Shown: positions 13,552 to 26,373 of the stretch, piece by piece
How the letters are laid out: every line of letters begins with the position of its first letter
Position numbering within the stretch: position 1 is the stretch's first letter
NCBI GenBank assembly: GCA_023663185.1
Contig: JAMPHY010000026.1
Location: 1 to 39,007, forward strand
DNA from: Clostridiales bacterium
Lineage (GTDB): Bacteria; Bacillota; Clostridia; Lachnospirales; Lachnospiraceae
Direction: 5' to 3'
DNA: 39,007 bases
Notes under the pieces: generated by a model
Told to the model about the DNA's origin: nothing
Seen by the model: the letters and a program-made list of their open reading frames with translations, nothing else
The model's database searches: none
Translations under genes and position numbers: made by a program

Positions 13552-13594
13552 ATTCTAAGAACAATTAGGTGTGATTTTATCACGAATGAAAGTT

Positions 13595-13756
13595 GATAGA
13601 GGTTGCATTTTTTATCAGTATGGATACGGATGCGGCAGGCGCAGATGAAGTATTCGGAAAGGAAAAGATGCCGAAAGAAAAGGTTGACTGTAAACTTTTT
13701 CTTGGGCGTACAGTTAAGAGCTGTATGACTGTCATCGAATAAGATGGGGCGCTATC
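13595..13756 (+). promoter_or_regulatory. lysine riboswitch (L box)
   Basis: The leader shows the conserved lysine-aptamer landmarks in order. They are GATAGAGG at the 5' side of P1 (13595-13602), ATCAGTA, GGAAAGG, the invariant GCCGAAAG-like block, CTTGGGCGTACAG, ATGACTGTCATC, and GGGGCGCTATC closing P1 (CTATC 13752-13756 with GATAG). In this class, lysine binding stabilises P1 and favours the downstream terminator, lowering lysine biosynthesis. dapA and dapB immediately downstream agree with that logic. There is one extra T in the usual AGAGGTGC block. Confidence 0.93.
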
Positions 13757-13783
13757 GGGACATTTATAATAGCAATTATGATG

Positions 13784-23939: not shown

Positions 23940-24596
23940 ATGAAAGCTGTATTTATTAACGGCAGTCCAAGAAAAAATTGGAATACTGATAAACTCCTCA
24001 AAAGTGCTGCAAAGGGTGCTGAGAGTGTTGAAGCAGAAGTTAAATATTATGATCTGTATGATTTACAATTCAGTGGATGCCGTAGTTGCTTTGCATGTAA
24101 AGTAAAAGATTCAAAAACAAATGGTGTCTGCACTTATCCTGATGCATTGAAGCCAGTCATGGATGACATCCAGCCTGCCGATGTACTTGTTCTTGGAACT
24201 CCTGTTTATCTTGGAAATATGAGCGCACAATTAAATCTTTTCTGGGAGCGGCTTATGTTTGCAAATGTCAGCTACAGCTCATATGACCAAGGCAGTAAAA
24301 TGGAAAAGGCAAAACGCTGTGCCATAATCATAACAATGGGAGCAACGATGGAACAGATGTGTCAACTTGGTTATGACAGGCATTTCAATCAAATGGGCAG
24401 GCAGTTAGGTCACATGATGGGGAGTGAATCTGCGGAAATATTGTACAGCTATGATGCCTACCAATTTTCAGATTATTCAAAATATAACATCAGCGCGGAC
24501 AGGGCGGATCCTGTTCAAAAGGCAAAACATTTGGAAGAAGAATATCCTCTTGATTTGGACAGGGCATACGAACTTGGAAGGAGAGTCTGTCAATGA
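23940..24596 (+). CDS. NAD(P)H-dependent FMN reductase / flavodoxin family protein, copy 1
   Basis: A 218-residue flavodoxin-fold protein. The FMN phosphate loop is FINGSPRKNWNT (5-16), and the GTPVYLGNMSAQLNLFWERL block (about 86-105) forms the second flavin contact. Cys47, Cys50, Cys53 and Cys64 are spaced CX2CX2CX10C, reminiscent of iron-sulfur flavoproteins but with a wider last gap, so cluster binding is uncertain. It is likely a quinone, nitro-compound or flavin reductase, or an electron carrier. GAGGGG precedes the ATG. It is paralogous to the next gene, and the two overlap by 4 bases (ATGA), so their translation is coupled. Confidence 0.88.
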   Translation: MKAVFINGSPRKNWNTDKLLKSAAKGAESVEAEVKYYDLYDLQFSGCRSCFACKVKDSKTNGVCTYPDALKPVMDDIQPADVLVLGTPVYLGNMSAQLNLFWERLMFANVSYSSYDQGSKMEKAKRCAIIITMGATMEQMCQLGYDRHFNQMGRQLGHMMGSESAEILYSYDAYQFSDYSKYNISADRADPVQKAKHLEEEYPLDLDRAYELGRRVCQ

Positions 24597-25222
24597 AAAC
24601 AATTATTTTGAATGCCAGCCCAAGAAAAAACTGGAATACTGCGCAGTTACTTCAATCCGCTGCAAAAGGGGCTGAATCTGTAGGCTCTGAGGTTGAATAT
24701 ATTGACCTGTACGAATTGAATTTTACCGGATGCAGAAGTTGTCTTGCTTGCAAAATGAACACGGCGACACCGAGACATTGTTACTATAAGGATGATCTGT
24801 CCCCTGTTATTGATCGTATTTATGAATCAGACGCATTGATTGTTGGAAGTCCTATTTACCTGATGGATACGACAAGTCAGTTCCATGCATTGATGGAGCG
24901 TCTTGTATTTACAAATCTTTCTTATGGCACACCACATTCTTTCACCGGAAAAATCAACTTTGGTGGGATATTTACTATGAACGCCACAGAAAACTGGTAT
25001 TATGGAACGATTGAGCCCAGATTAAAAGACCAACTGCAATGGCTGAAGGGGCTAAATGGCGAGATCAGAATTCTTCCAAGCTTGGATACTCTGCAGGTTC
25101 ATGACTATTCCAAGTATGATATGGGTGCGTTTGATGCGGGACATAAGAAGCAGGTGCATCTCACACAGTTTCCCAAAGACATAGAGGCGGCATTTCAAAT
25201 GGGTGTTGAGTTAAGCAGATAA
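24593..25222 (+). CDS. NAD(P)H-dependent FMN reductase / flavodoxin family protein, copy 2
   Basis: A 209-residue paralogue of the upstream protein. Shared blocks include ASPRKNWNT, QSAAKGAESV and GCRSCLACK, and DNA similarity remains visible near the 5' ends, so the pair arose by tandem duplication. Cys47, Cys50, Cys53 and Cys63 are present. The second flavin contact is GSPIYLMDTTSQFHALMERL. The ATGA overlap and a GGAAGGAGAG site inside the end of copy 1 point to coupled translation and perhaps a heteromeric complex. The two genes use fewer GCG/CGC-rich codons than their neighbours, a hint of transfer. Confidence 0.88.
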   Translation: MKTIILNASPRKNWNTAQLLQSAAKGAESVGSEVEYIDLYELNFTGCRSCLACKMNTATPRHCYYKDDLSPVIDRIYESDALIVGSPIYLMDTTSQFHALMERLVFTNLSYGTPHSFTGKINFGGIFTMNATENWYYGTIEPRLKDQLQWLKGLNGEIRILPSLDTLQVHDYSKYDMGAFDAGHKKQVHLTQFPKDIEAAFQMGVELSR

Positions 25223-25282: not shown

Positions 25283-25311
25283 TTGCGCATGATAGAAGTA
25301 TTGTGTATAAT
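25283..25311 (+). promoter_or_regulatory. promoter of the candidate small RNA
   Basis: TTGCGC (25283-25288) is 17 bases from a perfect TATAAT (25306-25311). The expected transcription start (about 25318) is just before the first structured repeat at 25324. Confidence 0.6.
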
Positions 25312-25317
25312 AAAAGT

Positions 25318-25417
25318 ACAGATGGTGAGTCTCCACCATAAAGAGAGAACTTAAAAAAGCGGTGAGTTCCCACCAATAAGAGGAAACTTAAAGGGGCGAG
25401 TTTATCGTCCCCTTTTT
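25318..25417 (+). ncRNA. candidate small RNA: two tandem H-type pseudoknots plus terminator
   Basis: Two 37-base units abut at 25324-25360 and 25361-25397, identical at 28 of 37 positions. In each, stem 1 is GGTG with CACC (25324-25327/25334-25337; 25361-25364/25371-25374). The loop can pair with an A-rich tail. In unit 1, TCTC (25330-25333) pairs with GAGA (25345-25348); in unit 2, TTCC (25367-25370) pairs with GGAA (25382-25385). Two of these pairs are compensatory changes (C-G to T-A and T-A to C-G). Adjacent GA/CT bases can extend stem 2 by two pairs around a bulged A. The connecting loop is 7 A-rich bases (ATAAAGA or AATAAGA). A promoter lies directly upstream and a terminator directly downstream, giving an RNA of about 100 nt. 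No open reading frame of note. Class unknown; tandem simple pseudoknots such as the STAXI motif are a precedent in form only. Confidence 0.65.
25390..25417 (+). terminator. terminator of the candidate small RNA
   Basis: A stem of AAAGGGG (25390-25396) with CCCCTTT (25409-25415), extended by CGA/TCG past one bulged T, has a 5-base loop and runs into TTTTT (25413-25417). Confidence 0.85.
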
Positions 25418-25596
25418 AACGCTATTAAAAGAGAAAGTATGTAAAAGATACCTTCACAACATAAAATATGCGCTTCACAACATTTGGGTTAATTGATGGA
25501 AGGGATGCTCCGAAAGATAAAGTGTAGGGTGGAACACGAACACTAAATGAGTTCTACGATTACATAGTATACATGTTAGAAAGGGGCAAGAAAGCT
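25418..25596 (+). other. spacer with paired 11-base direct repeats
   Basis: Leader region before the FlxA-like gene. It contains CTTCACAACAT twice (25452-25462 and 25473-25483), 21 bases apart, a spacing that puts both copies on one face of the helix. A GTAG/GAAC...GTTC/TAC inverted set at about 25526-25559 could form an RNA stem. No convincing promoter was found. Confidence 0.4.
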
Positions 25597-26373
25597 ATGA
25601 ATGTTAATGGAGTGACTAATGGAGTCAATATGCAGGCAGGACAGATGCCGGGCGGACATGAGGACGACCTTATTAGTAAAAATTTAAAAAGGCAGATTGA
25701 AGATTTACAGAAAAGTCTGCAGGAGATAGCTGCCGATACTAAAATGAGCGGCGAGGAAAAAATGAAGAAGCGGCAGGAGATACAGAAGCAGATTAACGAT
25801 TTGAACATGCAGCTTCGTCAGCGTCAGATTGAGTTAAGAAAAGAGAAACAGCAGGAAAAAGCGGAGTCGGAGAATATATTCGATACTGCTTCTGCAATGG
25901 AAAACTCTAAAGGCGGTAAAAAGACGAACGGAATTTCACAAGGCAGCATGGAAGCTATGATTTCAGCGGACGTATCGATGAAGCAGGCAGCTAAGCAGGG
26001 CAGCGTGGCAACTAAGATGGAAGGCCGCGCAGGAGTCTTAGAGATGGAAATAAAGCTCGACTCAGCCCGTAACGGCGATACATCAGCGAAACAGAAAGAA
26101 CTTGCCAATGTAGAGCAAAAGGCGGCAAACGCGGCGGCGTCACAGCTTGATACATTAAGCAAGGCGAATAAAACCCTGAAAGAAGCCGCAGATTCAGAGC
26201 ATGATACAAACGCGGCAAAAGAAGCAGACGCAGAGCAGGAAGCAAATGAAACAGAAGAAACTGGCTCAGCACGGAAAACAGAAAATGCTGAAAATGTAGA
26301 TAATACGGAAAGCAAAGAACATAAAAAAGGAGCGGAAAGAGAAAGCGGTACGGTCGTAGATGTAAGGATTTAA
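25597..26373 (+). CDS. FlxA-like coiled-coil protein
   Basis: The 258-residue product starts at ATG 25597; AAAGGGG lies about 11 bases upstream, inside the longer open frame from 25573. After a Gly/Met-rich start, residues about 27-90 form a charged coiled coil (KRQIEDLQKSLQEIAADT, KMKKRQEIQKQINDL) that resembles the FlxA-like family. A second helical part (115-195) and a Glu/Ala/Asn-rich low-complexity tail (195-250) follow. There is no signal peptide or membrane segment. E. coli flxA is a sigma-28 motility gene, but the function of these Gram-positive relatives is not known. No flagellar genes are in this window. Confidence 0.7.
   Translation: MNVNGVTNGVNMQAGQMPGGHEDDLISKNLKRQIEDLQKSLQEIAADTKMSGEEKMKKRQEIQKQINDLNMQLRQRQIELRKEKQQEKAESENIFDTASAMENSKGGKKTNGISQGSMEAMISADVSMKQAAKQGSVATKMEGRAGVLEMEIKLDSARNGDTSAKQKELANVEQKAANAAASQLDTLSKANKTLKEAADSEHDTNAAKEADAEQEANETEETGSARKTENAENVDNTESKEHKKGAERESGTVVDVRI

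Follow-up and report, generated by a model that had tools for sequence, protein, structure and literature searches.

The window, a stretch of 39,007 nt from a Lachnospiraceae genome (contig JAMPHY010000026.1), carries a small RNA gene at positions 25283-25417 that is almost certainly the antitoxin of a type III toxin-antitoxin (TA) system without its toxin gene; judged by sequence, its two units are antitoxin repeats of the ToxI/antiQ kind. With good probability, it is an orphan of a type III locus of the ToxIN/AbiQ kind with the following origin and mechanism. The ancestor would have carried antitoxin, terminator and toxin; the toxin would have been lost first, which is the safe order, and the antitoxin would have remained before two sister species split. 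The transcript of about 100 nt would fold into two pseudoknots, and a matching ToxN entering on a plasmid or phage would bind the units, cut between them at the A-run and be sequestered. The orphan would act in trans as an anti-addiction or anti-abortive-infection antidote, and any ToxN met in trans would most likely arrive from outside.

Direct checks of the sequence bore out the architecture described in the initial annotation (Table 1): a TTGCGC/TATAAT promoter with a 17-nt spacer, albeit with a weak -35 element, two units in register with a period of 37 nt (28/37 bases identical from 25324), and an intrinsic terminator after them. Each unit has a GGTG/CACC stem whose loop is complementary to the tail (TCTC with GAGA in unit 1, TTCC with GGAA in unit 2), and the differences at 25331, 25332, 25346 and 25347 against 25368, 25369, 25383 and 25384 are compensatory, as claimed. 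This difference between the units need not have arisen in the window, because the array of the ToxN-linked locus L217 holds both unit types.

Table 1. Features of the element and its flanks, in window coordinates. The training set of model R1 includes both window units.
Feature	Position	Strand	Description
-35 element TTGCGC	25283..25288	+	weak, TTGACA matched at 3/6; direct sequence check
-10 element TATAAT	25306..25311	+	spacer to -35 element 17 nt; direct sequence check
Antitoxin unit 1	25322..25358	+	model R1, 46 bits, E 5.9e-12
Unit 1 stems			S1, 25322-25327 with 25334-25339; S2, 25330-25333 with 25345-25348
Antitoxin unit 2	25359..25392	+	model R1, 39.2 bits, E 1.6e-9
Unit 2 stems			S1, 25361-25364 with 25371-25374; S2, 25367-25370 with 25382-25385
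Intrinsic terminator	25393..25417	+	stem 25393-25411, T-run to 25417
Possible toxin-leader vestige	25418..25441	+	loose alignment to ToxN leader/start region of L224 and L227; ATG at end
FlxA-like gene (PF14282)	25597..26373	+	occupies the expected ToxN position and does not belong to the element; in the ORF list it starts at an earlier ATG, 25573
FMN reductase/flavodoxin-fold gene	24593..25222	+	upstream, incidental; missing at this place in G007

A generic promoter scan did not list the window promoter, since its -35 element agrees with TTGACA at three of six positions only. The pattern TTGCNN-17-TATAAT was present upstream of four of eight related arrays examined (L217, L224, L226, L227) and not found at the other four (L213, L214, L222, L225). 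The idea of a promoter shared with other loci was discarded: the blast matches of the promoter region to L002, L011, L012 and L013 were weak, and when the own genome was searched for the pattern, only the window copy came up. The tail of unit 1 ends in A6, between the units, and this is likely the ToxN cut site by analogy with the cleavage site A/AAA given for AbiQ in passages of PMC5086642. Ahead of the terminator, the A-run of unit 2 is only A3, in the window and in the sister species G007 alike, against four to six in eight ToxN-linked loci measured; this could impair the release of unit 2. The 24-nt stretch that follows the terminator may, by its sequence, be a vestige of the toxin leader, and is too short for proof.

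The tandem pseudoknot units at 25283-25417 exceed chance. Strict pseudoknots (4+4 Watson-Crick pairs, fixed loop lengths) occur three times on the + strand of the window against a mean of 0.84 in random sequence, and a tandem pair of pseudoknots 33-40 nt apart was found at one place on that strand and in 0/300 Markov-1 sequences as long as the window. At 25318-25417, folding stability exceeds that of shuffled sequences (z -2.8), for which the terminator is partly responsible. Covariation, a check proposed in the initial annotation, was assessed across 18 related units, drawn from the window as well as from phages and ToxN-linked loci. They were hand-picked as one class and represent a shared fold, not an unbiased sample: 97.9% of stem cells were paired, 15 cells with two-sided changes, and sliding the pairing partners lowered the paired cells to 39-62%. 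In the MAFFT alignment of these units, two of which are off by one column with a few cells disturbed, the number of pair types was not above shuffles (496/500 as high), and pairs with two-sided change were only modestly above them (34/500 as high). The earlier reading as a self-contained small RNA gene of tandem pseudoknots, in which base pairing was retained while the sequence changed, is supported.

The identity of the element follows from its relatives. Window positions 25299-25392 match L217 with 87.6% identity over 97 nt (E 1e-26) and positions 25306-25430 match L224 with 80.5% over 128 nt (E 5e-24), where the E-values apply to a search of 15 chosen loci only; ToxN lies downstream of the array in both. 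The homology with ToxN-linked loci extends from the TATAAT box through the terminator and breaks off at the expected toxin start. In a DNA-level search covering 98 genomes, the own genome included, the same array turned up in G007 (97%), and G031 and G082 yielded similar arrays, each followed by a gene, that of G031 being ToxN (PF13958, E 1.6e-49). Solved relatives are 2xd0, 7d8o, 4ato and AbiQ (4glk). A unit-pattern scan of named genomes, the source of the closest complete loci, yielded 18 stretches, 12 of them with ToxN by HMM within the fetched stretch (L213, L214, L215, L217, L218, L220, L221, L223, L224, L226, L227 and L228; L227 is counted on a 49-residue frame only, and L220 is the locus of G031). 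The six ToxN-negative stretches comprise the toxin-less arrays L216 (the G007 locus), L219, L222 and L225, a contig end (L229), and L212, which in our reading lies within a Yersinia coding sequence and matches the pattern by chance. The window element thus combines tandem repeats (two units with a 37-nt period, where about 34-36 nt is expected), one H-type pseudoknot per unit with covarying stems, a terminator after the array and homology to ToxN-linked arrays. The earlier reading as an unmatched element is not supported.

The antiQ-type arrays, which accompany ToxN/AbiQ on Lactococcus plasmids and in relatives among Lachnospiraceae and Clostridia, share with the window array the unit sequence, the fold, a period of 35-37 nt and the terminator, whereas the window array lacks the toxin gene and has a shorter A-run before the terminator. 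Repeat numbers are two in the window, three in plasmid pCV56A and 2.8 in antiQ, the latter as given in part of PMC5086642. ToxI of ToxIN from Pectobacterium and Bacillus, to which the window array is likened by description and not by ToxI RNA sequence, is described in the same portion (PMC5086642) as an antitoxin of tandem pseudoknots that a terminator separates from the toxin; the window copy, in contrast, is an orphan.

In Rfam, the scan proposed in the initial annotation gave no relevant match for the window array at either gathering or permissive thresholds, and none was obtained for the ToxN-linked loci L139, L141 and L224 either; the silence of Rfam therefore says little on novelty. STAXI is another tandem simple-pseudoknot RNA motif, and the resemblance to it that had been remarked upon found no support, the window array being without a relevant Rfam match. 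A ligand-binding riboswitch or another cis-regulator of the neighbouring genes, to which the tandem pseudoknots and the intergenic position would conform, is very improbable: the element has its own promoter and terminator, its upstream neighbour differs between the two species, the homology to ToxN-linked arrays contradicts such a role, and Rfam returned nothing relevant. Of the earlier suggestion of a ligand- or protein-binding element, the protein-binding option is supported and the ligand-binding option is not.

In complete type III loci, a terminator hairpin stands between antitoxin and toxin. A complete locus would have a toxin gene of the ToxN, CptN or TenpN type directly 3' of the array; ToxN-based searches found none at this place, where the gene is FlxA-like. 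With our own HMM, applied to frames of 20 residues or more, neither the window nor the 20-kb region of G007 (L032) gave a ToxN match, tblastn with the toxins of C10, G031 and two of G082 gave only chance matches in the window, and the PF13958 profile run over the own genome had no match on the window's contig. The draft genome consists of 54 contigs, which leaves some room for a ToxN gene that really follows the array and was dropped in assembly; this is hardly credible, as the same junction occurs in the assembly of another species, with a collinear downstream flank. The FlxA-like gene lies downstream of the array in both species, and upstream the array directly follows a histidine kinase gene in G007, whereas two flavodoxin-fold genes stand between kinase and array in the window. 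The flavodoxin/FlxA neighbourhood, offered earlier as context, thus looks incidental. In the more distant relatives G011 and G102, the kinase and FlxA genes were matched and blastn gave nothing across 25283-25417, which suggests that the array is absent or unrecognisable there. The comparison of G007, G011 and G102 places the arrival of the array, and in the simplest case also its orphaning, before the divergence of the window and G007 lineages. The window element is probably an orphan antitoxin left by toxin loss.

By the PF13958 profile, the own genome has six ToxN matches (C10, C11, C44, C50, C53 and C45), five of them complete genes and one a fragment cut off by the end of its contig. This is the highest count in the search of 77 genus genomes. 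Repeat arrays lie upstream of all five complete genes. In a tree of 76 toxins with several long branches, a ten-member group with support 99/94 comprises AbiQ, the toxins of G031 and G006_C1, and those of L213, L214, L215, L217, L218, L224 and L226. The five own toxins and the three G007 toxins fall outside this group, which is linked to the nearest arrays, and the own toxins have at most 43% identity to the group members tabulated. With no resident ToxN of the nearest-linked group, the orphan has no known target in the cell. Similar units also accompany toxins outside the group, namely those of L221, L223 and phage pCD1602_4 (CD1602) of C. difficile. Unit type and toxin group thus do not correspond strictly, and it is not certain which toxin matches the window array; the assembly is 94.8% complete, which leaves a small chance of a matching toxin elsewhere in the own genome.

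The orphan might instead add to the antitoxin supply for a resident ToxN that is encoded at another place in the genome, which we consider unlikely. Besides the number of resident toxins and the pairing of similar units with more than one toxin group, this is favoured by the units of C10 and C11, which share parts of the motif, those of C11 scoring 31-32 bits with model R1, itself trained on one of them. Against it, none of the five resident toxins (0/5) belongs to the ten-member group, every complete resident locus has its own array, and type III antitoxins are reported, in passages of PMC5086642, to be highly specific.

Between the window and G007, positions 25283-25417 are 97.1% identical, with three substitutions and one gap, compared with 92.4% for the downstream intergenic region and 90.7% for the FlxA ORF. 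All paired bases of the two units are unchanged, and the substitution in the terminator turns, in our reading, a G-U pair into A-U in G007. In this comparison of two species, the array gene is better conserved than the FlxA ORF (Fisher P 0.011) and not significantly better than the downstream intergenic region (P 0.09); the Poisson probabilities of four or fewer changes are 0.005 and 0.025, respectively.

These data bear on a reading of the element as a pure relic, in which the antitoxin outlived the toxin since its loss first would be lethal, and now drifts without function. We give this even chances. In both species the -10 element, the terminator and the two stems of each unit are intact, 0/4 changes break a pair, and the conservation above the neighbouring gene likewise speaks against drift; the shortened A-run before the terminator fits it, as do the decay of other orphans and the frequency of toxin-first decay in the genus. 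In a search of 77 genus genomes with model R1, 42 rows at E up to 5.5e-5, the extent of the tally, correspond to 35 array loci, of which 18 adjoin a full-length ToxN, four have a broken or truncated toxin (L160, L164, L170 and G104:C51, the latter in two fragments), 11 have no ToxN within the about 1.5 kb or more in which it was sought, and two lie at contig ends. (A run of the model over 392 genomes of the order served only for the loci fetched from it.) The 11 toxin-less arrays occupy six places, one shared by the window and G007, one by five copies, and four single. L160, L164 and L170 have kept the array beside N-terminal toxin frames of only about 25-30 residues, and in L171, by eye, the array is intact and few toxin codons are left; in these sequences toxin-first loss appears in progress in the genus. 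The five copies (L159, L161, L162, L165 and L233) are orphan single-unit antitoxins at a shared site upstream of what we read as a phosphoesterase-like gene; unlike in the window, the terminator looks lost in them by eye, and the pseudoknot may now lie in the leader of that gene. L142, a C. difficile phage remnant without ToxN, has a broken stem. That the window element is still an effective antidote falls somewhat short of even odds in our estimate, a decaying relic being about as likely. According to part of PMC5086642, antitoxicity required at least 1.8 antiQ repeats, so that the two repeats of the window are about the minimum.

Beyond chromosomes, window positions 25318-25420 matched, in a plasmid collection, only four Lactococcus plasmids (E 1e-5), in the two examined of which a ToxN/AbiQ gene comes right after the array; in a phage collection, the array matched only three Lactococcus phage records, representing two phages (E 1e-4). 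Of ten Ceduovirus-type regions chosen from matches, nine carry units in the spacer ahead of the lysin gene, and bIL67 has no unit at the corresponding place; CHPC1242 has one unit and vL_313A two. In L137, L138 and L143-L150, this spacer holds 0, 1, 2 or more antiQ-like units. Among 13 Ceduovirus units (the divergent 05802 unit left out), S2 is kept in all 13 and all four S1 pairs in five, the other eight having one unpaired stem 1 position. ToxN was not found in vL_313A, 05802, CHPC1242 or vL_308A, each record searched whole, nor in AR1086-1 or the records of L094, L095 (a 6-kb piece) and L096; it is present in pCD1602_4 and plasmid pCV56A. AbiQ is reported to be active on c2-group phages (PMC5086642, in part). 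The units of c2-type phages could be a natural RNA decoy against AbiQ.

Solitary units also occur in the viral records L094, L230, L095, L096 and L231. At L095:4049-4120, on a viral contig fragment, a terminator-like hairpin comes after one unit nearly identical to window unit 2, and the stretch ahead of the unit is, by eye, promoter-like; this is perhaps a stand-alone one-unit RNA gene. L096 has two units and the same sequence as the Clostridium celatum contig L219. In L231:373-396, on a 148-kb viral contig, one antitoxin-like unit adjoins tRNA-like sequence.

Lone units are carried by lactococcal c2-type phages, by some other viral contigs as single units, and by chromosomes like that of the window. 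We tentatively suggest, as a proposal somewhat more apt to fail than to hold, that type III antitoxin RNAs without a toxin form a class of small RNA genes that recurs, acting as anti-addiction antidotes in bacteria and as decoys against ToxN-type abortive infection in phages; the unpaired stem 1 position in eight of the 13 phage units lowers its odds. Toxin-based searches miss toxin-less antitoxins. Should the orphans still be active, cells and phages that carry them would be immune in advance to ToxN systems arriving from outside, and the orphans would be the RNA counterpart of type II anti-addiction antitoxins; chromosomal antitoxins in that role are described for type II systems in portions of PMC10305079 and PMC12548467. 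The series of c2-type phages with 0, 1, 2 or more units makes the decoy idea directly testable against AbiQ.

As described in sections of PMC5086642 and PMC5772629, ToxN cuts the antitoxin RNA into units, which fold and cage the toxin. The pseudo-ToxI of phage PhiTE resembles the window array in having antitoxin-like repeats without a toxin, and is phage-borne with 1.5 repeats in the wild type; when expanded or recombined, these repeats suppress ToxIN (PMC3475682, in part). The window copy, in contrast, is chromosomal, comes with a promoter and a terminator of its own, and seems to descend from a TA locus. Mimicry of the PhiTE kind was considered as its origin and set aside, as the homologous promoter and terminator favour descent. 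RNA anti-CRISPRs, in which the effector is diverted by a solitary CRISPR repeat RNA (PMC10651486, in part), offer an analogy without homology. Within the accessible portions of the open-licence literature, the pseudo-ToxI of PhiTE was found, and no report turned up that describes orphan type III antitoxins on chromosomes or c2-type phages with antiQ units.

Two further observations concern other parts of the window. At 25450-25540, two CTTCACAAC copies lie 5' of the FlxA-like gene, and similar sequence precedes the copy of this gene in G102; the stretch is perhaps its regulatory region. At 13589-13762, the window contains a lysine riboswitch aptamer (RF00168, 118.6 bits).
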